DNA from: an uncultured Patescibacteria group bacterium
GTDB lineage: Bacteria; Patescibacteriota; JACMRA01
Assembly (NCBI GenBank): GCA_938041505.1
Contig: CALITC010000016.1
Span: 1 to 54,961 of the forward strand
Length of the DNA: 54,961 nucleotides
Reading direction: 5' to 3'
A program made the position numbers and the translations under genes. The stretch's first letter is position 1; every line of letters begins with the position of its first letter. Below the pieces are notes generated by a model. The model was given only the letters and a program-made list of their open reading frames with translations. It made no database searches and was not told where the DNA came from. This document shows positions 25,097-40,218 of this stretch, one piece after another.

Positions 25097-28000
25097 CTAT
25101 CTCACCCTTCTCTTAATTGTCTTCCAAGTCACGAACACAACAGCACCAGCCAAAATCCCAAGCGGAATAAAGAGTAAACCTCCAGTACGCGGCGTGACTG
25201 TAGAGCCATTACCGTCCTCATTCACAAATGGGCTTTCGCTACCCTGCTGACGTTCTTGAAAACTACTAAGTCCATCTCCATCACTATCCAAAAAACTTGA
25301 TGGATCATTAGGATCTGTGCCATCCCGTATCTCAACAATATTTGGTATACCATCTCCATCACTATCTAAGAAACTCGAAGCATTTGCTGGATCTGTACCC
25401 TGCTCACTTTCTAAAGCGTCAGGAACTTCGTCACCATCACTATCTAAAAAACTCTGAACATTGCTCGGGTCTGTGCCATCGAGAATCTCTTGTTCATCTG
25501 AGTTGCCGTCTCCGTCTGTATCAACGTCATTATCTTGATTTGTAAATACCAAATCAGCAATATCACCACCTGCAATCACATCAAAGGTAGTATCGTCAGA
25601 TATTGGGTTTCCTGTAATGAGTCTAAAGTTCTGATCACCGTCAATTTGAGGATCATTGTTGCCTTTGATGGTCACAGTGTTAGCCGAAGGATTGTTCCAA
25701 TTACTATTTTTAATCACCAGGTCGTAATTCCCTACTGCATGAGCAGTAACACCTGCTAGGAAAGAGTTGGACACAGCCACAGGCTGTATATCCCCTTCAT
25801 CCGGGTTATCAATACTCAACGGAATAATCACATCAGCATTATTAATTGGTTGTTTGCTAAGCTCAAAAGAAACCGTAGCTGTTTGACCCGCTTCAGAAGT
25901 CTGCTGCGCAGTAGAAGTAACAATAACTTGAACACTTTCGTTATCCTCATTAACCAGCTCAACATCAAGCACATCAGTTGCACTCAAGGCGTCATATCGT
26001 GTATCGTTAGAGACTACATTGTTGGTTAGAATTGAATAATCCTGATTATCATCATTATCGGCGTCATCTACACCGTTAACTACAATACTTTGGGGCACAT
26101 CCCACTCTTCAATCTCTATCTGAATGGCGCCTTGAACAGTTCCCTCTTCAACATCACTACTCGTAAATTCTATCTGCACAGGGGCGATAGGCTTCGAAGT
26201 AAGTTGCACGGTAAATTCACCTGCATCTCCTGATTCGGAAGTTATACTATCGAGTAGAGTAACTTCTACCCCAGCCACATCATCATCCTCATTCACTAGG
26301 CCAAAATCCAGTATATCCGTATCCGTCAAAGCAGCATAACCAGGATCAGAAGTGGTAGGAGCCTCAGTCAATAGATTGTAGCTCACATCCCCATCATCTA
26401 ATTCATCATCCACGCCAGAAATAACCACAAAATTACTAGTCGGATTATTCCAATTTTCAGGAGTTATTGTAATTTGAGAAACACCTCCTAAAGACCCTTC
26501 ACTCACATCATCTAATATTACCGGTATTGTAACCTCTGTTGTCGGCTCTGAAGAAAGAGTGAAAAACACATTCGCGATATTACCATTCTCTTGAGTAACA
26601 TTATCATTGGAGGTAACAACGACACCCGCAACTTCGTTATCAGTAATATCCACAACAATATCCGCCATCACCAGAGCATTAAAAGTCGTATCTGTTGAGC
26701 TAACCAAATGGGAAATAGTAGCTGTATGATTGCCTTCTTGTATAGAATCATCTATAGTTTCAACTTCCACAACCTGAGCTTGGTTCCAATTACCAGGTGT
26801 GAAAATAACTTGAATTGGCTGACCATATCCAGAGCCATTAAGCTGAATCTGTTCTTCAGGGTCGACAACAATATTCACATCGTGAGTTGGCTGCACCGAT
26901 AACACGAGTCTATAGATATCTAAGGAATTTGATCCTTCCACCCCAATTGTTGAGTCACCAGTTTCCGTAACCAGGACACCTACCGAATCGTTATCAATAA
27001 CCGTTGCCACTACAGCCTGACTAGACAAACCAGTGAATGCTGAGTCAGACGCATTATCAACGGCGACGTCAATCTGAACCTGCCTATCCCCAATCTGATT
27101 ATCGTTAACCCCAGTGATTGTAAACTGGTTACTAGAAGCATTGTTCCAATTGGTTGGTGTAATTGTAAGCGAAGCTGGTGTCACTTCCACTATGCCCTCA
27201 TCATTACTATTAATTGTGAGAATTACATCAGTTTGTGGTATTGCCGTCAACTCGACACTCACTGAAGCTGTTCCACCATTTTCATCAACTGTAACACTAA
27301 AAGTATCCAGAACAAAACCAGCATTCTCATTATCTACTATATCAACTAAGAAATCATTTGGGTTCAGTAGAGTGTACGCTGGGTCTGATGTAATAATATC
27401 AAAGTCAATAATCTCAGAATGTCTTCCTTCTATGATCGAATCATCTACAGCTTCAATAAATACGGGCTGAGCTTGATTCCAGTTTGCAGGTGTAAACACG
27501 ATCGAAGTGGAAGATCCTCCCTCAACTACAATCTCAGCACCCGCATTCAGTTTCAAAGTAACATTTTGCTGCGGCATGGTATCTAATGCAATATTAACAA
27601 AATCTCCAGTACCATCCTCAATTACTGTCGTGTCCCCGTCAGTTGAAGCGACTGTAATTCCAGCGCCGTCGTTATCTATGATCGTAAGACCATAACTAGA
27701 GCTATTCAACCTATAATTTTCAGGAGATAAAGGCATGTTAGACGTTAGCACAAAATTATGAATAAAATTAGGCGCATCAACATTATCATCTTGAGCCTCA
27801 AAAGTAATCGTCTGTGGCTGATCCCAGTTATTAGGGTTAAATTCCAAATGATAACGGCAATTTAAACCGCTAGGATCACAGTCTCCAATACTTTGACTAG
27901 CTTCTTCTGGAGTAATCACAAAGCGCTCACCAACTTCTTCCCCTGCCCAAATATAAACACTACTCTCAGGCTCACTCAATAGAACAACGTCCATCACAAA

Positions 28001-31000
28001 AGCACCGGCGAACTCAGATATCTGACCATTAACTGGTATAAAACTATTCACCACAATTCCCCCTTGATCATTATCCAGCAAATCCACCACAATCGTCTGA
28101 TCAGGCATCACTGAATAAGTGACGTCACTCAGAGGATCGACCGAAAGTATAATCTCTGTAGAGTCATCTCTAACAACCTCATCATCAACTGAAGTAATTA
28201 TGACAATCTGAGGAATATTCCAATTCGAAGAAGTAAACACAAGAGAACTGTTTGACAAACCAACCTCCGAAGTATCCGTAATAGTTAAATCGATTGTAAC
28301 TTCGTTTAAAGGTGCTTGTGTTAAACTAATCTCAATATTTTCTGATGCGCCGTTCTCTTGTAACTCAATAGAGTAATCACTTGCAACAAAACTTGCTGAC
28401 TCGTCATCAATAATAGTAACCACAATAGCTTCGCCTTCAATAGGAAGGTTAATAAAATTTGAAACTGTGGCATCTGTAGATATTATCGATGGGGTTAACG
28501 TCGACATATGCAATCCTTCGTTATCAGTATCATCTTCTGCTTGGACAAAAACAGTGACACCATTCCAATTATTTTCATTAAAGACTATGTTTAATGATTC
28601 ACTTGGGTTATTATATGAAACCCCATCTGTAGAAAGCCGTACCTCAGAATTATCCAGTGCTATCTGAGCAATAACATTTTCTCCAGTTGCCGGCTGAGAA
28701 TCAACACTCAATACTACACTATCTGTACCTCCACCAGCTTCTTGAATTGTAACAGAAATCTTATCTGCATTCAATCCAACTTCGTCATTATCTTGGATAT
28801 CAAAAGATTGCGTGGATAAGCTAAAATTATCATACAAAGAATCTGTGCTAGTAACAACAAAACTTACATCCGAGCTATGTGGATTTAGCTCAGTAATCTG
28901 ATCATCAATCGGAAATACCTGTATAAACTGTTCAACATTCCAGTCATCCTGTCTAAATTGTAATGAGCTTGTACTTTCCAAGGAACCTCCTAACAACATT
29001 TGATTAGAATCAGTAGAAAAATCAACGTTAACACCACCCAAAGGTCTTGAGGTCAAAGATATTCTCAAATAATCACCCTTCGAAGGATGGCTTTCATCAA
29101 GCTGATTGACTGCATCTTGAGAATTATTTTCTGAATCATAACGAACTACATTTACACCAACTTGGTCATTATCAGTAATTTGATAAACCTGATTCGGCAC
29201 ATTAATCAGTCCATATTCTCTATCGCTGCTAAAGCTAGAAACATATATTTCTGAATTGTAAGTGCTTCCACGATCCACATCATCAATTACAGCGAATACA
29301 TCGACAATTTGCTCAACATTCCAATTCGAAGGGGTGAACGACAAAGAAATTAAATTGCTATTATTAGTATCAAAAATAATATTATTATCGATAGACTGCA
29401 AAAATATAGTTACATTATCAGAGGGTTGTGCGTCCAGTACATAACCAAGTTTATCTCCAATATTTGGCAAGTCCTCATCAAGAAGATTTGTATTGTCTAA
29501 TACCCCCGAGCTATCAAGCGGTCTTACTGTTACACCAGGTACATCGTCATCAAGAATTTTTATTTCAAACCCACTCGAGTTTATTTCATATTCGGGTTGA
29601 GTAAGGGAGTCAATAGAGGTTACAAATAAGTTTACAAGAGAATCATCAATCGTATCGTTGTTAACTGAAGTTAAAGATATCGTTTGAGGCTCGTCCCAGT
29701 TTGAACTGTCAAATACCAGAGGATTTTGAGCGGTGTCTGGCGCATCAATAAAATTATCGCCATGGACACTTTGTACATAGACAGCTCCTTGTGGCTCAGA
29801 ATCTAATACGACGTCATAAGATATCTCACCTGAATCTTCACTAACCTCGTATGGTAACGTCAGCGCCCCACCCAAACTATCAACAAAATTACTAATTGTA
29901 ATACCAGGTTCATCATCATCAATAATCGAAGCCTCTACTCTTGGGAAATTTGTTAATCCTATATACCCAGAGTCATTTGTGGCGGCTCCAAGGGATGTTG
30001 AGATCAAACTTGTATGGACGCCACCCAGCAAATCAGACTCCACTATACCATCATTAACAGCAACAATATCCAAATCGACAAACTGTGAGGAGTTATCAAG
30101 CATAACACTTGTATTACCTGTCACCGAACCATTCACACTAATTTGCGAACCATCATATACAAGATCAATTTGAACCTGATCTCCAGGGTTGGGAATTGTT
30201 GTAATTCCAACTGTAAGAGGTTTTGAAATCACTCCAGCTTCATCAACAACCAACCCATCAATAGCATTCAAAATAACCCCAGTTGTATCCTCATCAATTG
30301 CATCAACTTGGATCGCTCTAATCAAATTATTATTCGAAGGATTGTACGGAGATGTAGAATCTGCAGATTGAGTATTCGTGAATAATACAGTATCAGCTAA
30401 CAAGCCATCTGTATTAGTATCATCAACAGCCCTTACAAACACCTGTTGGGCATTATCTCTACCCCAAGCATTGTTATCAAAAACAATAGCTTCGGAAGCG
30501 CTAAATTCAACCCCATCAGTACTTAGCTCAACTTCTGTACCAGCCACATTACCAGTAACTGTAACAATGTTGCCTAATTTTGGTTCGCTAGCTAACCACA
30601 CTTCTACAAAGTCTACAGACCCCCCTTCTACTGTCGAAAGTTGGCCCCTACTTACCTCAATACCAGCTTCGTCATTGTCAATCAAAGTAATATTTACAGC
30701 CTCATCTGATACGGTGCTAGCACTATACTGAGTATCAGTAGTGTTCCCAATATCAACTGAAAAGGTGATTACAGTGCTTTGATCAAAATCAATATTGTCA
30801 TCAACAGCTGTTATATCAAAAAAAACTTCCTTATTCCAGTTAGTCTCGTTAAAAATTAATTCAGAAGATGACGTACTAGAAATAACCTCATTTGAATCAA
30901 AATTTCTTAGAACCCTAACCACAGTACCAGGTTCAGGTTGGGAATCTAACCTTACACCAACACTTTTGACACTCCCACCTTCAAACATCGAAATAGAGTT

Positions 31001-31801
31001 TTCACTTACTATTATTCCAGGAAGATCATTATCCTCAATATTAATAGTTACATCTGGTAAAGTCAGGGTATTAAAAATAGCATTACTTGAAGAAACACTT
31101 AAGCTTAACGGTGCATTATGTTCGCCTTCTGCAATTACATCATCCACAGCTTGTAAGCTTACCGTTTGAGGCTCTTCCCATGTATCTGAATTAAAATCTA
31201 TTGAATATGTAGATTCTCCATAGATACTACTTTGCGTACCCCCATCCAAAGTCACAGACACTCCTTCGGTACCAGGGCTGGAATTCATAGCTATTGATAA
31301 ATCATAGAAATTACCACCTTCAGCAACCGATAAAGAAGTATTATAAGTAAATGGATCAACAACCTCAGCAGCTAGGCTAGTGTCAAACTCCCCACCTCCA
31401 TCAAATTGACCTAGAATAGGAGCATCGGTAACCGCCAACAAAGGGGTTGAGATATCTAAACACTCAAAATTCTGTCCTGTAAACGAACACTCCTCAAGAG
31501 ACCCGCTAACCAAGCCTATTAGCATTGTCGTTTGCGGTTCGGTTAAGTTCTCATCTATAGCGCCAACGCAATCAACCATGCTATTAGTCAATGCGGGTTC
31601 AGGAATACAACTAAAACTCTCCAATGCAAAGTTGCTTTCGTTTATCGGGTCTCCATTAGCTACAACACCGGATCTTTTGAATTCAGCCCCGCCTTGATTG
31701 TTAAGCAGCCAAGCAACAGCGATCCCTGCAAGTATTACACCTGCAAAAATTAAAATTAGGATAAGTTTTTGTTTAAAAAAACGCTGGGCGCGGATTAGCA
31801 T
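25097..31801 (-). CDS. Giant Calx-beta/TSP3 repeat surface protein (2234 aa)
   Basis: An N-terminal membrane segment ('LILILIFAGVILAGIAVAWLL', about 13-33) directs export. A short cysteine-containing region follows, then about 16 tandem Calx-beta-type domains of some 115-130 residues (about 140-2090). Each has an N-W-N/D-x-P-Q-like strand, a 'V.DD' turn and a 'DND.AGI' linker; such acidic turns usually bind calcium. From about 2094 come thrombospondin type 3 units of 26 residues ('DSDGD...GTDP'), also calcium-binding. A C-terminal helix ('FIPLGILAGAVVFVTW') and 'KTIKRRVR' tail anchor it. It is probably a rigid, calcium-stiffened adhesin or stalk; attachment to a host cell is inference. It has its own strong promoter. 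Confidence 0.9.
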   Translation of the reverse strand: MLIRAQRFFKQKLILILIFAGVILAGIAVAWLLNNQGGAEFKRSGVVANGDPINESNFALESFSCIPEPALTNSMVDCVGAIDENLTEPQTTMLIGLVSGSLEECSFTGQNFECLDISTPLLAVTDAPILGQFDGGGEFDTSLAAEVVDPFTYNTSLSVAEGGNFYDLSIAMNSSPGTEGVSVTLDGGTQSSIYGESTYSIDFNSDTWEEPQTVSLQAVDDVIAEGEHNAPLSLSVSSSNAIFNTLTLPDVTINIEDNDLPGIIVSENSISMFEGGSVKSVGVRLDSQPEPGTVVRVLRNFDSNEVISSTSSSELIFNETNWNKEVFFDITAVDDNIDFDQSTVITFSVDIGNTTDTQYSASTVSDEAVNITLIDNDEAGIEVSRGQLSTVEGGSVDFVEVWLASEPKLGNIVTVTGNVAGTEVELSTDGVEFSASEAIVFDNNAWGRDNAQQVFVRAVDDTNTDGLLADTVLFTNTQSADSTSPYNPSNNNLIRAIQVDAIDEDTTGVILNAIDGLVVDEAGVISKPLTVGITTIPNPGDQVQIDLVYDGSQISVNGSVTGNTSVMLDNSSQFVDLDIVAVNDGIVESDLLGGVHTSLISTSLGAATNDSGYIGLTNFPRVEASIIDDDEPGITISNFVDSLGGALTLPYEVSEDSGEISYDVVLDSEPQGAVYVQSVHGDNFIDAPDTAQNPLVFDSSNWDEPQTISLTSVNNDTIDDSLVNLFVTSIDSLTQPEYEINSSGFEIKILDDDVPGVTVRPLDSSGVLDNTNLLDEDLPNIGDKLGYVLDAQPSDNVTIFLQSIDNNIIFDTNNSNLISLSFTPSNWNVEQIVDVFAVIDDVDRGSTYNSEIYVSSFSSDREYGLINVPNQVYQITDNDQVGVNVVRYDSENNSQDAVNQLDESHPSKGDYLRISLTSRPLGGVNVDFSTDSNQMLLGGSLESTSSLQFRQDDWNVEQFIQVFPIDDQITELNPHSSDVSFVVTSTDSLYDNFSLSTQSFDIQDNDEVGLNADKISVTIQEAGGGTDSVVLSVDSQPATGENVIAQIALDNSEVRLSTDGVSYNNPSESLNIVFNENNWNGVTVFVQAEDDTDNEGLHMSTLTPSIISTDATVSNFINLPIEGEAIVVTIIDDESASFVASDYSIELQENGASENIEISLTQAPLNEVTIDLTITDTSEVGLSNSSLVFTSSNWNIPQIVIITSVDDEVVRDDSTEIILSVDPLSDVTYSVMPDQTIVVDLLDNDQGGIVVNSFIPVNGQISEFAGAFVMDVVLLSEPESSVYIWAGEEVGERFVITPEEASQSIGDCDPSGLNCRYHLEFNPNNWDQPQTITFEAQDDNVDAPNFIHNFVLTSNMPLSPENYRLNSSSYGLTIIDNDGAGITVASTDGDTTVIEDGTGDFVNIALDTMPQQNVTLKLNAGAEIVVEGGSSTSIVFTPANWNQAQPVFIEAVDDSIIEGRHSEIIDFDIITSDPAYTLLNPNDFLVDIVDNENAGFVLDTFSVTVDENGGTASVSVELTAIPQTDVILTINSNDEGIVEVTPASLTITPTNWNNASSNQFTITGVNDNQIGDRQVQIDVAVDNASDSAFTGLSSQAVVATVIDNDSVGVLVTETGDSTIGVEGSNSLDIYRLVLSVQPTHDVNIVVDPEEQIQLNGSGYGQPIQVIFTPGNWNQAQVVEVETIDDSIQEGNHTATISHLVSSTDTTFNALVMADIVVDITDNEVAGVVVTSNDNVTQENGNIANVFFTLSSEPTTEVTIPVILDDVSEGSLGGVSQITITPENWNNPTSNFVVISGVDDELDDGDVSYNLLTEAPTTSDPGYAALTDTDILDFGLVNEDDDVAGVEVTLLDSITSESGDAGEFTVQLTSKPIAPVQIEFTSSDVEEGTVQGAIQIEIEEWDVPQSIVVNGVDDADNDDNQDYSILTNNVVSNDTRYDALSATDVLDVELVNEDNESVQVIVTSTAQQTSEAGQTATVSFELSKQPINNADVIIPLSIDNPDEGDIQPVAVSNSFLAGVTAHAVGNYDLVIKNSNWNNPSANTVTIKGNNDPQIDGDQNFRLITGNPISDDTTFDVIAGGDIADLVFTNQDNDVDTDGDGNSDEQEILDGTDPSNVQSFLDSDGDEVPDALESEQGTDPANASSFLDSDGDGIPNIVEIRDGTDPNDPSSFLDSDGDGLSSFQERQQGSESPFVNEDGNGSTVTPRTGGLLFIPLGILAGAVVFVTWKTIKRRVR
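25200..25540 (-). repeat. Tandem repeat encoding thrombospondin type 3 units
   Basis: At DNA level a 78-bp unit (26 codons) recurs about 3.5 times with similar bases (for example the repeated 'ccatcactatc' on the plus strand). It encodes D-x-D-G-D calcium-binding loops. Such repeats can expand or contract by recombination. Confidence 0.8.
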
Positions 31802-32632: not shown

Positions 32633-32917
32633 ATGAATTATTATCTATACATATAACATATATTATCAGATAAGACCATACCTTAATATTTTTTTTTCTT
32701 GACAACATAGTCAAAATAAGACCAATTTAACAGTATATTTTAATAAAAAGTTGATATAACTCAACAAATTCTTAAAATAGTATCGCGACAACACAACCAA
32801 ATAAGTTTCTTTTGAAAAATTTAAGAAAATTACCACATCAAATACGACATCAAAAGAGTGTAAGAAAAGCAGTAAATAATTTTACTGCCATCATTAGTAT
32901 GAATCAATCTAACCAAT

Positions 32918-35080
32918 ATGCCGAAAATGAAAAGTCGAACAGTAACAGCTAAAAGCGCAGAAAAAATTAATTTAAAAAAAGTTAAAAACATCAAAAAACA
33001 CAATGTTGTGGTAATTTTGCCGACTTATAATGAAGCTGAAAACATTTCAGATATTATCTCAACAGTTGCCATTCAACAACAATCTTTACCAAACCATTTA
33101 CTTCAAATATTAGTTGTTGATGACAAATCACCAGACGGAACAGCTGACATTGTTAAAGATTTTGCGACCACTAATCCTTTCATTCACCTTATTTTAGGAA
33201 ACAAGAAAGGATTAGGAGTTGCCTACAAAAGAGGTATAAAATACGCTATAAGCGTTTTGAAGGCTGACTATATTTTCGAAATGGATGCCGACGGTTCTCA
33301 TGACCCAAATCTTATTCCAAAATTTGTAAATGAGCTTGAAAATGGAAATGACTTTGTAATCGGATCAAGATACGTTAATGGAGGAAGTATCCCAAACGAT
33401 TGGCCAACCTCACGCAAATTAAATAGCAGATTTGGAAATCTATTTGCCAACATTGTTGCAGGTTTAAAAGGAGTAAAGGACACTACAAGTGGCTATAGAG
33501 CAATCAAAACAAGTATTCTTAAAAAAATAAATTTGGAGAATCTCAAGGTAAAAGGATACGGATTTCAAATTAATATTTTACACGAAGCAATTACTCAAGG
33601 AGCTATAGTAAAAGAGATACCAATCCAATTCAAAGATAGGACCAAAGGACAGTCTAAAATGAGCCTATCAGACCAACTCGGGTTCGTTTTATTCACACTT
33701 AGTCTAAGACTTAATTCCTTCAAAAAGCCAAAATTATTCATTATTTTGGGGATTTTGGGGATTTTATCAGCCTTAGGCTTTACCATAGCTAAACTTCTAT
33801 CTTTAAGACCGACTGAAGCTATAGGTGTAGTCTTAGTAACCATCTCTTTGGTATTGGTAATTCAAGGTCTTTTCACCCTCTATTTGTCCCTCTATACTTG
33901 GGCAGATCCAAAACGAGTACACACAAATCGCTCACCTAAAAAATTTACTAAACCTACTAGATCTTTCACAGCCCTTTTGCCAGCAAGAAATGAAGAGAAT
34001 GTGATTGGACATACCATTGCAGCTGTTCACGGGGTTGACTACCCAGACGAGCTCAAAGAAACAATTGTTTTATGTAGAAAAGACGATGTTGGTACAATAG
34101 CAGCAGCACAAGCCGCAATTGATAAATTAGGCAAAAAAAATATTCGAATCATTGCAGACACCTTGCCAAATAGCAAACCTATGAAGCTTAATATTGGTGC
34201 AGCAGAAGCTAAAAATGAAGTTATTTGTATTTTTGACGCTGAAGATGAACCTCACAAAGATATCTACAACATCGTAAATACTGTTATGGTAAGAAAAAAT
34301 GCAGACGTAGTCCAATCTGGAGTGCAATTAATGAATTTTGCTTCGCACTGGTTCTCAGCGCTTAACGTTTTAGAATATTATTTTTGGTTTAAATCAGCAC
34401 TCAGATTCTTTGCGAAAGTTGGTTTGATAACCTTAGGAGGCAACACTGTCTTCTTTAAAAAGGAATGGATGCAGAAGATTGGTGGCTGGGATGAAACATG
34501 TCTAACAGAAGATGCAGATGTCGGCTTGAGGCTGAGTAAGATGGGGGCTAAAATTGAAGTATTGTACGACCAAGAACATGCGACACAAGAAGAAACCCCT
34601 CACAACCTTGAGAATTTTATCAAACAAAGAACTCGCTGGAATCAAGGGTTTATTCAAGTACTGTTAAAGGGTGAATGGCTAAGCCTGCCAAAGCTGAGTC
34701 AGAGATTTCTGGCATTTTACTTGTTGTTCTGGCCAATTGTCCAATCATTACTGTTTTTGTATATACCAATTTCTTTGGCATTAATGTTCTTTTTAAAGCT
34801 ACCAGTTTGGGCTACTATGATAACAATTCTTCCAGTGTATATGCTAGCATTACACCTTATTACAATAATTGTAGCATTCTATCAATTTGTAGGAGAATAC
34901 AACTTAAAACACTCAAGGTTATTCCCATTACAAATCCTTTTTTGGTATTTCCCTTATCAATTTATCTTGGGTTTATCAGCTTACAGGGCAGTGTATAGAT
35001 TGGTTTCAAATCAAGCCTCATGGGAGAAAACAACTCACGTTGGAGCGCATAGAAAAACACTAGCATACACAAACAATTAA
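32918..35080 (+). CDS. Fused double GT2 glycosyltransferase (720 aa)
   Basis: Two family-2 glycosyltransferase domains are joined in one chain. The first (about 30-265) resembles dolichyl-phosphate mannose synthases: 'VVILPTYNEAENI', 'VVDDKSPDGT', a D-x-D at 123-125 ('FEMDADGSHDP') and 'VIGSRYVNGG'. Two membrane helices (about 275-335) follow. The second (about 350-600) resembles processive cellulose/hyaluronan-synthase-like enzymes: 'ALLPARNEENVIGHTI', 'IFDAEDEPHKD', 'LTEDADVGLRL' and the Q-x-x-R-W motif at 570-574. More helices follow (about 610-690). I infer one domain makes a lipid-linked sugar and the other polymerises or transfers sugars. It is the first gene of the putative polysaccharide operon, ending 11 bp before the next gene. 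Confidence 0.88.
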   Translation: MPKMKSRTVTAKSAEKINLKKVKNIKKHNVVVILPTYNEAENISDIISTVAIQQQSLPNHLLQILVVDDKSPDGTADIVKDFATTNPFIHLILGNKKGLGVAYKRGIKYAISVLKADYIFEMDADGSHDPNLIPKFVNELENGNDFVIGSRYVNGGSIPNDWPTSRKLNSRFGNLFANIVAGLKGVKDTTSGYRAIKTSILKKINLENLKVKGYGFQINILHEAITQGAIVKEIPIQFKDRTKGQSKMSLSDQLGFVLFTLSLRLNSFKKPKLFIILGILGILSALGFTIAKLLSLRPTEAIGVVLVTISLVLVIQGLFTLYLSLYTWADPKRVHTNRSPKKFTKPTRSFTALLPARNEENVIGHTIAAVHGVDYPDELKETIVLCRKDDVGTIAAAQAAIDKLGKKNIRIIADTLPNSKPMKLNIGAAEAKNEVICIFDAEDEPHKDIYNIVNTVMVRKNADVVQSGVQLMNFASHWFSALNVLEYYFWFKSALRFFAKVGLITLGGNTVFFKKEWMQKIGGWDETCLTEDADVGLRLSKMGAKIEVLYDQEHATQEETPHNLENFIKQRTRWNQGFIQVLLKGEWLSLPKLSQRFLAFYLLFWPIVQSLLFLYIPISLALMFFLKLPVWATMITILPVYMLALHLITIIVAFYQFVGEYNLKHSRLFPLQILFWYFPYQFILGLSAYRAVYRLVSNQASWEKTTHVGAHRKTLAYTNN

Positions 35081-35091
35081 TATTTTATATT

Positions 35092-37698
35092 ATGTTAAAA
35101 AAATTATTCAAACTCGAATACCTGAATTACCTCCTTATAACAATGGTATCACTTGTATCCCACTGGAACACATTTTTCTTCCCTGCATACAGAGAGGATG
35201 AAGGTACTTACATCTCCCAGGCATGGGCATTAGTAAATTCAGGGTCTTTAGCACCGTATACCTATTGGTATGACCACTCCCCTGTTGGTTGGTTTTTTAT
35301 CGCATTCTGGAATATTATATCAGGTGGATTTCTAGAAAATACTAATAGTATAATTGCTGGTAGGATATTTATTGTAATACTAAATGTTTGTTCCGCCTTA
35401 CTTGTATATACAATTGCGAAACAATTAACCCACAGTAAATTATACTCAGGCCTATCTTCCCTACTTTTCATATTAACACCTTTGGCTATTGAGTTTCAAA
35501 GAAGGGTCTTCATAGACAATATCATGATCTTTTGGTTGCTTTGGTCTATATACTTCTCTATTAAGCCGACTAAACTACCTAATGTTGTATTGAGTGCGAT
35601 AACTTTTGCAATTGCTGTATTAAGCAAAGAATCTGCTATTGTATTCTTGCCTGTGTTGATAACTTCTATATATTTCAACTCCCACAAAAACAACCGACCA
35701 TTTGTTACTGCTGCCTGGCTCGCTTTTAACATAGGGATTATTTCATTCTACCCTTTATACGCTTTAATCAAAGGTGAGTTTTTTGTATACGGATCTTTTT
35801 TGGGAGGAGAACAGCCTCATGTTAGCTTACTACAAGCACTAGCTTTTCAATCAGGGCGCTCAAGCGGTCTTTTCTGGGAAGCAGATAGTGCGTTTAGGCA
35901 AAATCTAGAACAAGCATGGATAAGTAAAGATGCCATTTTTATTGGTCTTGGTATAGTAGCTGCTCCTTTAATTAACTTCATCTTTTATAGGAAATATAAA
36001 TGGACAGGCTTTATTGCTATGATGGCAATCATATATATCCTGTACTTAATGAGAGGGCAAGTATTAGATTGGTATATTATTCCTTTGCTTCCTTTAGGTG
36101 CAATTAATCTAGCTCTCTTACTGCAAAACCTCCACGTCTCGATGAAGAAGTATCTACCCAACTTTGAGAAATTATATGTTGGTGCGGTAACTTTGTCTCT
36201 TGTAGCAATAATAGGATTGGGAGTCAATAAGAATGTCGACGCCTACAGATATAATCAAACCGAGAATCAAAGAAGAACAGTAGAATGGATCAAGAACAAC
36301 ATTAAAGGAGAAACAACACTTCTTATTGATAACTATGCATTCCAAGATTTAAATAGTGACTTAAAAAAGATAACCGACACTAATATCCACTACTATTGGA
36401 AAGCCGACACAATCAATGACCCAGAAATCGCTAGTGAGGTATTTGATAATGACTGGAGAAATGTAGACTATGTAATGTTAACTCCAGCAATCACGACAAC
36501 TTTGAATGCTAGCGGAGATGCAGACTTTCAAATAGTTAGATCCGCTTTAGAAAATTCCAATCGAGTAATACAATACAATGAATTCGCCATCGAAGGGGAT
36601 CCAATAGCAAATTATCCAGTCGAAATTTTAGAAGTAAATAATTTTGATTTCAGACTAGACAGAACCTGGCAACAATACAAGAAAAACTTTATCACCGAAG
36701 CCGGCCAGGTAATCGATCCTCAAGAAGACAATACCACCTCAAGAGGGCAAGCCTATGCTTTACTGCGATCAGTGTGGACAGATGATAAAGCGACATTTGA
36801 TAGTGTTCTAGATTGGACAGAGCTTAACCTACTCAAACCAAATAACTTACATGCATCTAAGCTAACTATAGAGGAAAACAATGAAAAAAATATATCTAAT
36901 GATAACTCATCAACAGATGCTGATATAGACATCGCCTTTTCTTTAATTCAAGCAGCGAACAAATGGAATTCGCCAGATTACCAAGAAAAAGCACAAAAAA
37001 TACTAGACTCAATATGGGTATACAATGTTGCAGAACTAAATAACACATTATATTTGGGTAGTGGTGATGCCGCTAGAAAAGATACTGGTATTCTTGTAAA
37101 CGCTTCTCACTACTCTCCAGGGATGTTTAGAGTTTTCGCACAAACCGACCCTAATCATGACTGGAGCAAACTCGCAGACGACTCCTACGACTTCCTAAAT
37201 GCTACTCGGGACTCTCGAACCGGACTTGTACCAAACTGGAGTTTGGTTGATAGCATTGGAACAGTTCTTACTGCTGAAGACTACATAGAAGAAGATTCTA
37301 ATATCTATGGCTATGATGCATCCAGAACATACTTTAGGGTTGCATTAGATAAGCTATGGTTTAATTCTCAAGAAAGTAAAGATTTCTTAAACTATTCGAA
37401 AAATAATTTCTTTCAACCATATTGGGAAAATAATTACGATATAGGTACTCTATACACACTTGACGGCAGAGAAATAGAAAATTACTCTGATATAAGTACT
37501 TCTGCAGCTGCAATTTCAGTTTTCCATGGGGAAGAATCAACACTGGATACTGAGATCTATCTTAACCTCTTAAAAAATCAAGAACATTCCGGCCACTGGG
37601 GTAATCAAAATAATTTTGATGACCAGAACTGGGGCTGGTTTGCAACAGCATTATATGGAGATAAATTAACAAATTATTCGACCGTTAACAATGAATAA
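35092..37698 (+). CDS. GT-C (ArnT/PMT-like) glycosyltransferase fused to a GH8 domain, catalytic Glu replaced (868 aa)
   Basis: The N-terminal 370 residues hold about ten membrane helices with the GT-C signs of PMT/ArnT-type, lipid-linked-sugar-using enzymes: the acidic first loop 'REDEGTYISQAWAL' and 'YDHSPVGW'. An external alpha/beta linker domain (about 385-520) follows. The C-terminal 345 residues match glycoside hydrolase family 8 (BcsZ/CelA-type endoglucanases): 'TEAGQVIDP', 'TDADIDIAFSL' (D609, D611, D613) and 'YDASRTYFR' (D742). The family motif T-S-E-G-Q is 'TSRGQAYAL' here: the catalytic acid Glu is Arg551. The domain is probably inactive as a hydrolase and may bind glucan. It overlaps the next gene by 8 bp (ATGAATAA), implying coupled translation. 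Confidence 0.85.
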   Translation: MLKKLFKLEYLNYLLITMVSLVSHWNTFFFPAYREDEGTYISQAWALVNSGSLAPYTYWYDHSPVGWFFIAFWNIISGGFLENTNSIIAGRIFIVILNVCSALLVYTIAKQLTHSKLYSGLSSLLFILTPLAIEFQRRVFIDNIMIFWLLWSIYFSIKPTKLPNVVLSAITFAIAVLSKESAIVFLPVLITSIYFNSHKNNRPFVTAAWLAFNIGIISFYPLYALIKGEFFVYGSFLGGEQPHVSLLQALAFQSGRSSGLFWEADSAFRQNLEQAWISKDAIFIGLGIVAAPLINFIFYRKYKWTGFIAMMAIIYILYLMRGQVLDWYIIPLLPLGAINLALLLQNLHVSMKKYLPNFEKLYVGAVTLSLVAIIGLGVNKNVDAYRYNQTENQRRTVEWIKNNIKGETTLLIDNYAFQDLNSDLKKITDTNIHYYWKADTINDPEIASEVFDNDWRNVDYVMLTPAITTTLNASGDADFQIVRSALENSNRVIQYNEFAIEGDPIANYPVEILEVNNFDFRLDRTWQQYKKNFITEAGQVIDPQEDNTTSRGQAYALLRSVWTDDKATFDSVLDWTELNLLKPNNLHASKLTIEENNEKNISNDNSSTDADIDIAFSLIQAANKWNSPDYQEKAQKILDSIWVYNVAELNNTLYLGSGDAARKDTGILVNASHYSPGMFRVFAQTDPNHDWSKLADDSYDFLNATRDSRTGLVPNWSLVDSIGTVLTAEDYIEEDSNIYGYDASRTYFRVALDKLWFNSQESKDFLNYSKNNFFQPYWENNYDIGTLYTLDGREIENYSDISTSAAAISVFHGEESTLDTEIYLNLLKNQEHSGHWGNQNNFDDQNWGWFATALYGDKLTNYSTVNNE

Positions 37699-39856
37699 AA
37701 AACTAATAGCCCTTATAGGCATACTTACACTTGTAGCAAATTATAATATACTACAAACCCCTCTAGTAAAAGCCCTCGAGGGTTATATCTTTGTTTTTCT
37801 AAACAATATTATACCTCCTTCATTATCGTTATTTCTTATCAGAAGCACTGCTTTGGCTCTATATTTTTTTGTTATTCTTGGGTTCGCTAAGCTATCAATC
37901 AAACTCAAAACTTCTGAATATAAGTTTTACGGAATAATTACGCTACTTATCCTACCCTATTTTACTAAGAAACTTAGCGGCTTAACAGTAGAAACTATAC
38001 TTTTTGGAATAATATCTTTTTTCTATGTGGTGTATCCGAATTCATACAACTCACTGGTTAAACTCTGGAATAGATTAAAAAAGAAAAACACTCTCACCAA
38101 AGCGATAGTTCTCAACACAAGCAAGGCAAAAACAACACTTATTGAGAGCATAAGCTCAAAACTATATATCTGGTTACTATTTGGTATTGCAATCATATAT
38201 GTCTTACCAAAAAATAACATCTCATTGTATAACACATCGATAATGATAGCCAGTGCATATTTGGTGTATTACGCTTATAAAAAAAGAAGCAAGGCAGTCT
38301 TAATATTATCTCTTATAACTTTTTTGTCGGCAGCAATAACGTCATTTTCATATTTAAATACCAGCTTAATACATGCTTTAAGCTCACTATTACTAATCCA
38401 AATAATTATAAAATGGATAGAAAATAGATTTGATCTACTCAAGGACTATTATATTACTAAACTAGGTGTGGTCGTATTGTTAATCGCCTTGACAGCCACC
38501 AATATATCTACGTTAAGTGGACGATGGAATGATCAAGATAACCAGCCATATCTAGATACAATTTCTGCTTACAACAACCTTGTAAAAAACTCCGATTCCA
38601 AAATAATCTACAATAACAACCTTTACAAAACAAAGTCGGCACTATCACATAAAGAGGTCGATTTGGAGAACCTGTTAGATGACCAATATTACTTGGCTAT
38701 TGATACCAGAATAAATGATACAGAAACTCAACAAATACTTGAACTTAAGGATAATTTTAATACTGTAGTAACATCAAAAAATGGAGAGGTGATTATTTTC
38801 AGCACCTTAGAGAAAAATCCTGCTGCTCTACAAGAATCATGGGAATTCTACAAAGAAATGTACATTACGGATAAAGGGCAAGTTATTGATATTGAAGAGA
38901 ACATTTCAACATCAGAAGGGCAGGCCTACGCCATGTTACGTGCCGTAATCTTAGAAGATAAGCAAACGTTCGATAAGGTTTGGGAATATACTCAGAATAA
39001 ATTTCAAGCCAGAGAAGGAGATAAATTACTATCTTGGAAAATTCAAGCTGATACTGAAGAAGTTACTGACTACACTATAGCCACTGACGCTGACATTGAT
39101 GCCGCCACCGCTCTACTCTTAGCATCGAAAACATGGGGAGAGTCCTACCTTAGCGATGCCAAAATTCTAATAGCAGATATTTGGCGAAAAACAGTTTTCG
39201 AAATAGACGGTCTATACTACCTCGGGTATTCCGACAATCCATTTAGCGGAGAACAGATAATTCTAAACCCTTCATATTTCTCGCCTTATGCATATAGAAT
39301 GTTCCAAACAGTTGATGACAACAATTGGACTCAACTCGCAACCGATTCATACACGGTACTGGATCAAATAAGCAAACGCACCGGTTCAACCACACTACCG
39401 CCAAACTGGATTGGGTTAAATACGACCACAAAATCCTACGAATCAGCTAATCTATCTAATAAAAACAAAGATGATTATAGTTTTGACGCATTTAGAACTT
39501 ATTTCAGAGTCGCCTTAGATTATCAACAATTCGAGTCATATGAGGCACAGACTTACCTTGAAGAGCAAAGCAAACTTATTACTGATATATTCGAAAAACA
39601 GGGATATCTGCCTTCAATTTTGGAAGTAAATGGAGAACCCAATAGTGATTTTGAAAGTGTAAGCACGAATATTGGACTAATAAGTACCTGGATTACCGAT
39701 CAAGACAAAGAAATAAAAGCCAATACAATTCTATTCAAAGATTATAACAAAACGCATTGGGGTAAATCAAAGAACTATTATGATCAAAACTGGGGATGGT
39801 TTGGCCTAGCATTGTACAATGATAAATTTAACCTTAATCAGAACTTTGACAATTAA
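37691..39856 (+). CDS. Membrane protein fused to a GH8 glycosidase domain, catalytic residues intact (721 aa)
   Basis: A paralogue of the preceding protein with the same order: membrane region (about 1-275, eight or more helices), external linker domain (about 280-380) and GH8 domain (about 385-721). Here the GH8 motif keeps the acid, 'TSEGQAYAML' (Glu409), with 'TDADIDAATAL' (D466, D468, D470) and 'FDAFRTYFR' (D599). I cannot find the acidic REDE-type loop of GT-C enzymes in its membrane part, so that half may be inactive or only a scaffold. GH8 enzymes cut beta-1,4-linked glucans and related polymers; in cellulose operons BcsZ (GH8) trims the nascent chain. The external side is the expected site of action. 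Confidence 0.82.
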   Translation: MNKKLIALIGILTLVANYNILQTPLVKALEGYIFVFLNNIIPPSLSLFLIRSTALALYFFVILGFAKLSIKLKTSEYKFYGIITLLILPYFTKKLSGLTVETILFGIISFFYVVYPNSYNSLVKLWNRLKKKNTLTKAIVLNTSKAKTTLIESISSKLYIWLLFGIAIIYVLPKNNISLYNTSIMIASAYLVYYAYKKRSKAVLILSLITFLSAAITSFSYLNTSLIHALSSLLLIQIIIKWIENRFDLLKDYYITKLGVVVLLIALTATNISTLSGRWNDQDNQPYLDTISAYNNLVKNSDSKIIYNNNLYKTKSALSHKEVDLENLLDDQYYLAIDTRINDTETQQILELKDNFNTVVTSKNGEVIIFSTLEKNPAALQESWEFYKEMYITDKGQVIDIEENISTSEGQAYAMLRAVILEDKQTFDKVWEYTQNKFQAREGDKLLSWKIQADTEEVTDYTIATDADIDAATALLLASKTWGESYLSDAKILIADIWRKTVFEIDGLYYLGYSDNPFSGEQIILNPSYFSPYAYRMFQTVDDNNWTQLATDSYTVLDQISKRTGSTTLPPNWIGLNTTTKSYESANLSNKNKDDYSFDAFRTYFRVALDYQQFESYEAQTYLEEQSKLITDIFEKQGYLPSILEVNGEPNSDFESVSTNIGLISTWITDQDKEIKANTILFKDYNKTHWGKSKNYYDQNWGWFGLALYNDKFNLNQNFDN

Positions 39857-39882
39857 ATTGAAGCTAGGTTGATTTAAATATA

Positions 39883-40218
39883 ATGAAGATCAAAGAATCT
39901 ATACGCATCACTCTAATTCTAACTGTAATTTTTGTACAGTTTTTAGTTGTTGTTACCAATATTAACAATTCCACCTCTTTGCACAATCGCCATAAGGAAC
40001 TTCGCAGTTCCATTGAGAGAGAAGAAGGGGAAAGGGTAAATCACTTGGCTGACGTAAAAAGAGAACTTGGAAACGACTTTAATCAAGAAAATATTAATGA
40101 GTCTTTACTAAAAGTATTTCCTTCTGAAATCGAACAAATCAAAACACAAGAACAACAAGCTGCAGAAGAAAGAGAGAGACGGGAAAAGAATAACGCAAAC
40201 ATAATAATCGCTCAATAA
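39883..40218 (+). CDS. Single-helix coiled-coil membrane protein (111 aa)
   Basis: One membrane helix ('ITLILTVIFVQFLVVVTNI', about 9-28) is followed by an external charged helix of about 75 residues with E/K/R-rich repeats ('REEGERVNHLADVKRELG', 'EQQAAEERERREKNN'), likely a coiled coil. The architecture recalls FtsL/DivIC-type or accessory subunits of polysaccharide machines, but there is no sequence identification. It follows the GH8 gene by 26 bp and closes the putative operon. Confidence 0.6.
   Translation: MKIKESIRITLILTVIFVQFLVVVTNINNSTSLHNRHKELRSSIEREEGERVNHLADVKRELGNDFNQENINESLLKVFPSEIEQIKTQEQQAAEERERREKNNANIIIAQ

Follow-up and report, generated by a model that had tools for sequence, protein, structure and literature searches.

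Multi-component transmembrane glycosylation systems, such as GtlA-GtcA-GtlB and CsbB-GtcA-YfhO, comprise a GT-A polyprenyl-phosphate-glycosyltransferase, a GtrA flippase, and a GT-C glycosyltransferase, and some of the large GT-Cs in these systems bear acceptor-binding domains (PMC8035078). Cellulose (Bcs) systems (BcsA, BcsB, BcsZ) instead combine a processive GT2 glycosyltransferase with a GH8 endoglucanase. The four-gene operon analysed here, which lies in a window of 54,961 nt (the whole stretch of DNA that was analysed) from an uncultured Patescibacteria bacterium, consists of known families and resembles multi-component transmembrane glycosylation joined to a synthase-dependent polysaccharide system. 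Like the multi-component systems, the operon has a GT-A lipid-sugar synthase and a PMT-type GT-C predicted to act outside the membrane; unlike them, it has its GT-A fused to a polymer synthase, its GT-C fused to a GH8 domain, no flippase gene, and, as proposed acceptor, a polymer made by the operon itself. Like Bcs systems, it pairs a processive GT2 with GH8, and, among solved folds, BcsZ is nearest to one of its GH8 domains and one of the nearest to the other; unlike Bcs systems, it lacks PilZ and BcsB, tethers its GH8 domains to membrane proteins, contains a GT-C and a dolichol-phosphate-mannose-synthase (DPM)-type enzyme, and has one GH8 without its catalytic acid.

Two further systems share single features with the operon. 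The CslA-GlxA apical glycan system of Streptomyces (PMC3543389, PMC9040799) has a GT2 with a galactose-oxidase-like partner, as do several actinobacterial relatives of the locus, whereas the window contains no oxidase gene. PssZ, of family GH126, is a GH8-like-fold glycosidase made with the polysaccharide on which it acts, the Pss exopolysaccharide of Listeria, and a PssZ-type structure (6r2m) is a distant fold match of the third protein of the operon; however, the GH8 domains of the operon belong to another family, and PssZ is a separate protein with no GT-C fusion. A study of Actinoplanes describes GtrA-dependent and Wzx/Wzy clusters, and the GT2/GT-C/GH8 unit is not among them (PMC13390465). 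Within the open-access full texts searched, a scope that leaves subscription papers outside, we find no description of the unit or of GT-C-GH8 fusions. The preliminary description of this locus, which knew of no described system with its architecture, therefore holds for the literature searched; the architecture is not isolated, however: it is a fused version of genes that occur together in three major lineages.

The operon consists of four intact open reading frames on the plus strand, P1 (32918-35080, 720 aa), P2 (35092-37698, 868 aa), P3 (37691-39856, 721 aa), and P4 (39883-40218, 111 aa), separated by 11, -8, and 26 nt, exactly as first described. The 285 nt intergenic region upstream (32633-32917, +), beyond which lies a divergent pseudouridine synthase gene (-), is the likely promoter region of the operon; it contains a promoter-like site at 32751-32778 (+) matching at 10 of 12 positions, although such sites are no commoner here than in shuffled sequences. 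Downstream, on the same strand, are genes for a peroxiredoxin, a 132-aa protein that reads by eye as a small heat-shock protein, and a short MGMT-like protein. The host assembly comprises 1.12 Mb in 26 contigs and is 69% complete; linkage beyond the window was checked through family searches. Searches of this 69%-complete genome yield no match to PilZ, which is likewise absent by Pfam from P1, and no match to BcsB (PF03170). The contrast with Bcs operons drawn in the preliminary description is thus upheld, and we conclude that the operon is not a Bcs system. The genome has two GtrA genes, both unlinked to the operon, and no GtrA or flippase gene lies within the operon. Searches of the 69%-complete genome give no match to undecaprenyl diphosphate synthase (PF01255), either because data are missing or because the route to the lipid carrier is unusual. 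Elsewhere in the genome is a second GT-C (G000:C21; L054, 8143-9648, -) that is not fused; it shares 37% identity with the GT-C of P2, and neither a GT2 nor a GH8 was detected near it. The window also encodes a 2234-aa surface protein (25097-31801, -) that has numerous repeats resembling one another (Calx-beta-like by eye), TSP3 repeats in Pfam, and a C-terminus (TPRTGG-hydrophobic-KRR) that looks like a sortase signal; two sortase genes are present elsewhere in the genome.

P1 contains two GT2 domains, in agreement with the double fusion first noted. The N-terminal domain (residues 1-270; 32918-33727, +) matches Glycos_transf_2 in Pfam at residues 32-204 (1.4e-37), has dolichol-phosphate mannose synthase 5mlz as its best solved relative (6.8e-32), and carries DD and DAD motifs (VVDDKSPDG and MDADGSHDP); it is a predicted polyprenyl-phosphate hexose synthase. 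The C-terminal part (residues 271-720; 33728-35080, +) comprises transmembrane segments and a second GT2, which matches Glyco_tranf_2_3 in Pfam at residues 350-576 (9.7e-39) and which has, within residues 340-720, the motifs FDAED, TEDAD, and QRTRW, all kept in relatives. Its best NCBIfam match is the poly-GlcNAc synthase PgaC_IcaA (1.1e-35), at 123.4 bits, far under the equivalog cut-off of 422.3, and nothing points to PNAG as the product of the operon; matches to BcsA chains have E-values of 6.5e-9 to 7.8e-9. From these motifs and profiles, the second GT2 is predicted to be processive and PgaC/BcsA-like. Full-length P1-type fusions scoring near P1 occur in about 6 of 361 genomes of the phylum. 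In an Andersenbacteria homologue of P1 (L049, 5834-7981, +), the DPM half lacks the DD and DAD motifs and the processive GT2 half is intact.

P2 joins a GT-C to a GH8. The N-terminal 500 residues (35092-36591, +) match PMT in Pfam at residues 70-194 (9.5e-7) and contain an Asp36-Glu37 motif in the first outer loop, invariant across 30 fused relatives, and the motif YTYWYDH; an AlphaFold2 model has a mean pLDDT of 86.6 and a full-length fold, and Foldseek matches of the membrane part include the archaeal oligosaccharyltransferase AglB. The C-terminal domain (36592-37698, +) matches Glyco_hydro_8 at residues 525-833 (2.2e-41) and has BcsZ as its top Foldseek match (TMt 0.83). Reading the catalytic residues from an alignment with Clostridium thermocellum CelA and its E95Q mutant (1kwf), we find that the general acid, Glu at the CelA E95 position, is replaced by Arg551 (codon AGA at 36742) and that the other catalytic Asp residues, D609 and D742, are kept. 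Two substitutions separate GAA from AGA, so that one miscalled base does not account for Arg551. Two cleft residues conserved in the family, W589 and Y673, are missing from P2 as well, and its GH8 domain retains 42 of 51 family-conserved positions, as compared to 48 of 51 for P3. In a GH8 tree, P2 clusters with Magasanikbacteria fusions that retain Glu (support 100/99), indicating that the acid was lost on the lineage of P2 itself. With the general acid absent, trimming by P2 is unlikely; the idea of a minimal system first put forward accordingly stands insofar as a few chains unite sugar activation and transfer across the membrane with a glucanase domain, but does not extend to trimming by P2.

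P3 also carries a GH8 domain (38807-39856, +), which matches Glyco_hydro_8 at residues 368-655 (8.1e-41), keeps all three catalytic residues (E409, D466, and D599), and has Foldseek matches to CMCax/BcsZ (TMt 0.83-0.84). The reported fusion of GH8 to membrane proteins is thus borne out by significant GH8 profile matches in both P2 and P3. The N-terminal 372 residues of P3 (37691-38806, +) comprise roughly 8-10 hydrophobic helices together with a short soluble linker, with no Pfam match and no GT-C Asp-Glu motif. AlphaFold2 pLDDT for this half is mostly below 50, although GT-C rows stood in the alignment, and its match to a GT-C profile (hhalign E 0.014) is no better than that of many membrane-protein controls, several of which are themselves GT-Cs. 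The assignment of both membrane parts to the ArnT/PMT type therefore holds for P2 and is unsupported for P3. We conclude that P3 is a predicted membrane-tethered glucanase. A candidate account that derives P3 from P2 by duplication, with the GT-C now dead and the GH8 live, is attractive in view of the tandem fusions at other loci, but the GT-C identity of the membrane half is unsupported by profiles, shuffles, controls, and structure prediction, and the GH8 of P3 does not group with that of P2 in the tree. When P3 was searched against the six genomes of its own class, matches were limited to its GH8 part. Tandem GT-C-GH8 fusions occur at other loci (L065, L066, and L069); in one of these (L065), the acid is lost in one copy and kept in the other. 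P4 (39883-40218, +), which the preliminary description counted into the system as a coiled-coil protein, is predicted to have one membrane helix at its N-terminus, and the rest of the chain is charged and coiled-coil-like; it has no Pfam match and no relative in the compared Patescibacteria loci, and it appears to lie outside the conserved unit. P3 and P4 are known from this one contig.

Searches across the phylum reveal GH8 in 22 of 380 genomes, and in 21 of these 22 genomes the adjoining partners of GH8 are a GT2 and either a GT-C or a GT-C-like protein, which answers the proposal that related genomes be surveyed for the same order. The arrangements are DPM-GT2 plus GT-C-GH8 fusions; a GH8-GT2-GT-C triad, the third gene of which is a GT-C by iterated search and an RLDE motif; and a split form (L051). 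The P1+P2 pair recurs in several Patescibacteria, in independent assemblies, and the fusions are therefore not assembly joins. Of 80 loci of Patescibacteria, Chloroflexota, and Actinomycetota chosen by GT-C sequence alone, 73 have a GT2 on the same strand as the GT-C and no more than 600 nt upstream of it, a result unaffected by ranking on the fused query, and 43 have a DPM within 3 kb. GH8 is present in 45 of the 80 loci (fused in 27, nearby in 18), the fused share being inflated by ranking on similarity to a fused query. Unfused versions occur in Chloroflexota and Actinomycetota, for example as GT2-GT-C-DPM-GH8 in Mycolicibacterium and GT2-GT-C-DPM in Arthrobacter, and related gene sets are present in the culturable genera Curtobacterium, Arthrobacter, Streptomyces, and Mycolicibacterium. 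We conclude that the operon represents a fused variant of a GT2 + GT-C + DPM (+ GH8) set that spans three major lineages.

Neighbours of the relatives provide further context. A GH5 gene adjoins the unit at one locus (L080), and galactose-oxidase-like or kelch proteins are neighbours of GT2-GT-C genes at six (L092, L098, L100, L103, L104, and L117), in Arthrobacter, Pseudonocardiaceae, Nocardia, Streptomyces, and Actinospica. In Magasanikbacteria, a GH113 gene (beta-mannanase family; L035, 10621-12345, +) lies directly 3' of a GT-C-GH8 fusion, a possible sign of mannose in the polymer. The GH5, GH113, and galactose-oxidase-like neighbours fit a beta-glycan. The galactose-oxidase-like neighbours in actinobacterial loci resemble GlxA beside CslA; we know of no GT-C component of the CslA-GlxA system. 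At one of the loci with tandem fusions (L066), a GtrA-domain protein is encoded directly 5' of the DPM-GT2 fusion. One GT-C-GH8 fusion lies on an 8.4 kb contig labelled Methylophilaceae (L060, JACMMS010000049.1), which is probably a mis-binned patescibacterial contig. Scans of viral contigs and plasmids, and a single-sequence scan of genome contigs, led nowhere.

The loss of the GH8 acid is not peculiar to P2. The acid is absent from 11 of 32 non-redundant GT-C-GH8 fusions, where it is replaced by R, S, A, Q, or L, as compared to 0 of 23 unfused GH8s (Fisher p = 0.001, a statistic that ignores relatedness). On a GH8 tree built with the catalytic columns masked, the acid states require 8 parsimony changes, with 7-8 in bootstrap trees and at least 4 forced by strong branches, suggesting that the acid has been lost independently several times in fusions. 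In contrast, no fusion whose N-terminus can be read has lost the Asp-Glu motif of the GT-C. With Asp-Glu always kept and the acid often lost, GT-C function in the fusions looks indispensable and hydrolase function dispensable. Acid-less fused GH8 domains remain nearly full length in several lineages. Four genomes with an acid-less fused GH8 have no second GH8, and one metagenome-assembled genome has two acid-less copies (L070 and L076); these cases rule out the candidate rule that a live GH8 invariably accompanies a dead fused copy. A membrane-GH8 fusion beside a lone GT2 (L050, 9030-11765, -) has no GT-C DE motif and has K at the GH8 acid site, and is perhaps a fully non-catalytic scaffold.

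We consider it probable that the product of the operon is a beta-glycan of the cell surface and that the chain is decorated outside the membrane. From the gene order, domain identities, motif states, and recurrence that we observe, we infer a polymer type, a donor sugar, a lipid carrier, a flippase, an acceptor-grip role for P2, and a working hydrolase in P3, as follows. The second GT2 of P1 would polymerise an NDP-sugar and thread the chain outward, as PgaC/BcsA-type synthases do. The first GT2 of P1 would load a sugar onto polyprenyl phosphate at the cytoplasmic face, and a flippase, possibly one of the two unlinked GtrA proteins, would turn the lipid-linked sugar over. The GT-C of P2 would then move the lipid-linked sugar onto the emerging chain, and the GH8 of P2, with its acid changed to Arg and no longer cutting, would most likely hold or orient the acceptor chain. 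P3, membrane-anchored and with an intact GH8, would perform endo-cleavage for length control, release, or clearing.

According to one alternative, the operon is a reduced cellulose-type system, in which the product of the second GT2 of P1 is plain cellulose, GH8 corresponds to BcsZ, and the DPM and GT-C do a separate job, such as protein O-mannosylation, having become fused by chance during genome reduction. The folds of the GH8 domains, closest to BcsZ and cellulases, and the BcsA-like motifs of P1 are as this alternative predicts, yet we regard it as unlikely given that GT2-GT-C adjacency extends to three major lineages even where the genes are unfused and that BcsB and PilZ are not found; moreover, the fusion of the DPM to the polymer synthase and of GH8 to the GT-C argues for one pathway. 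In another alternative, the GT-C itself builds or primes the chain: both GT2s of P1 would make lipid-linked sugars or a lipid-linked disaccharide, the GT-C would polymerise them outside, and GH8 would trim or transglycosylate. The GT-C is the most conserved member of the set, and the lipid-linked step varies among units, as the fused DPM is sometimes degenerate (L049) and a DPM is absent near many units; nevertheless, the second GT2 of P1 has the QxxRW motif and matches processive PgaC/BcsA-type enzymes rather than DPM, and we judge this alternative quite improbable. That the locus is an artefact of assembly or binning, as might be feared for a genome that is incomplete and in 26 contigs, is refuted for P1+P2 by the independent assemblies and is very improbable overall.

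The remaining alternative bears on just the GH8 of P2, and the other parts of the preferred account, that of a decorated beta-glycan, can stand alongside it: Arg551 and the cleft losses could reflect plain decay of a redundant, functionless domain once P3 took over hydrolysis. With W589 and Y673 lost as well, the domain may be decaying instead of binding, and decay is a serious rival; the lower number of conserved positions in P2 than in P3 and the tandem fusions elsewhere are in line with it. However, the frame and full-length fold of P2 are intact, and acid-less fused GH8s stay nearly full length in several lineages where the genome has no second GH8, and on balance we doubt decay while giving it real weight. 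Binding of the acceptor by the fused GH8, for its part, cannot be the sole role of the domain family-wide, since the acid is kept in 21 of the 32 fused GH8s.

More generally, and as a tentative extension that we do not yet favour outright, the gene set may represent a widespread, so far undescribed route to a glycan, with a processive GT2 and a GT-C acting on one chain and with a cellulase domain that became, independently in several lineages, a non-cutting, GT-C-fused acceptor clamp, a pseudo-hydrolase guiding the decoration of a nascent beta-glycan. Many Patescibacteria are believed to grow on the surface of other microbes, and, to our knowledge, almost nothing has been established experimentally about their surface polysaccharides. 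The operon offers a small set of genes for a predicted Patescibacteria surface glycan, in which the partners can be named and the sequence of steps predicted; because the set is also present in culturable genera, deletions in common laboratory strains could put it to the test. Should the fused GH8 prove to act as an acceptor clamp, it would offer a clear example of a hydrolase domain that has been repurposed to guide a glycosyltransferase.
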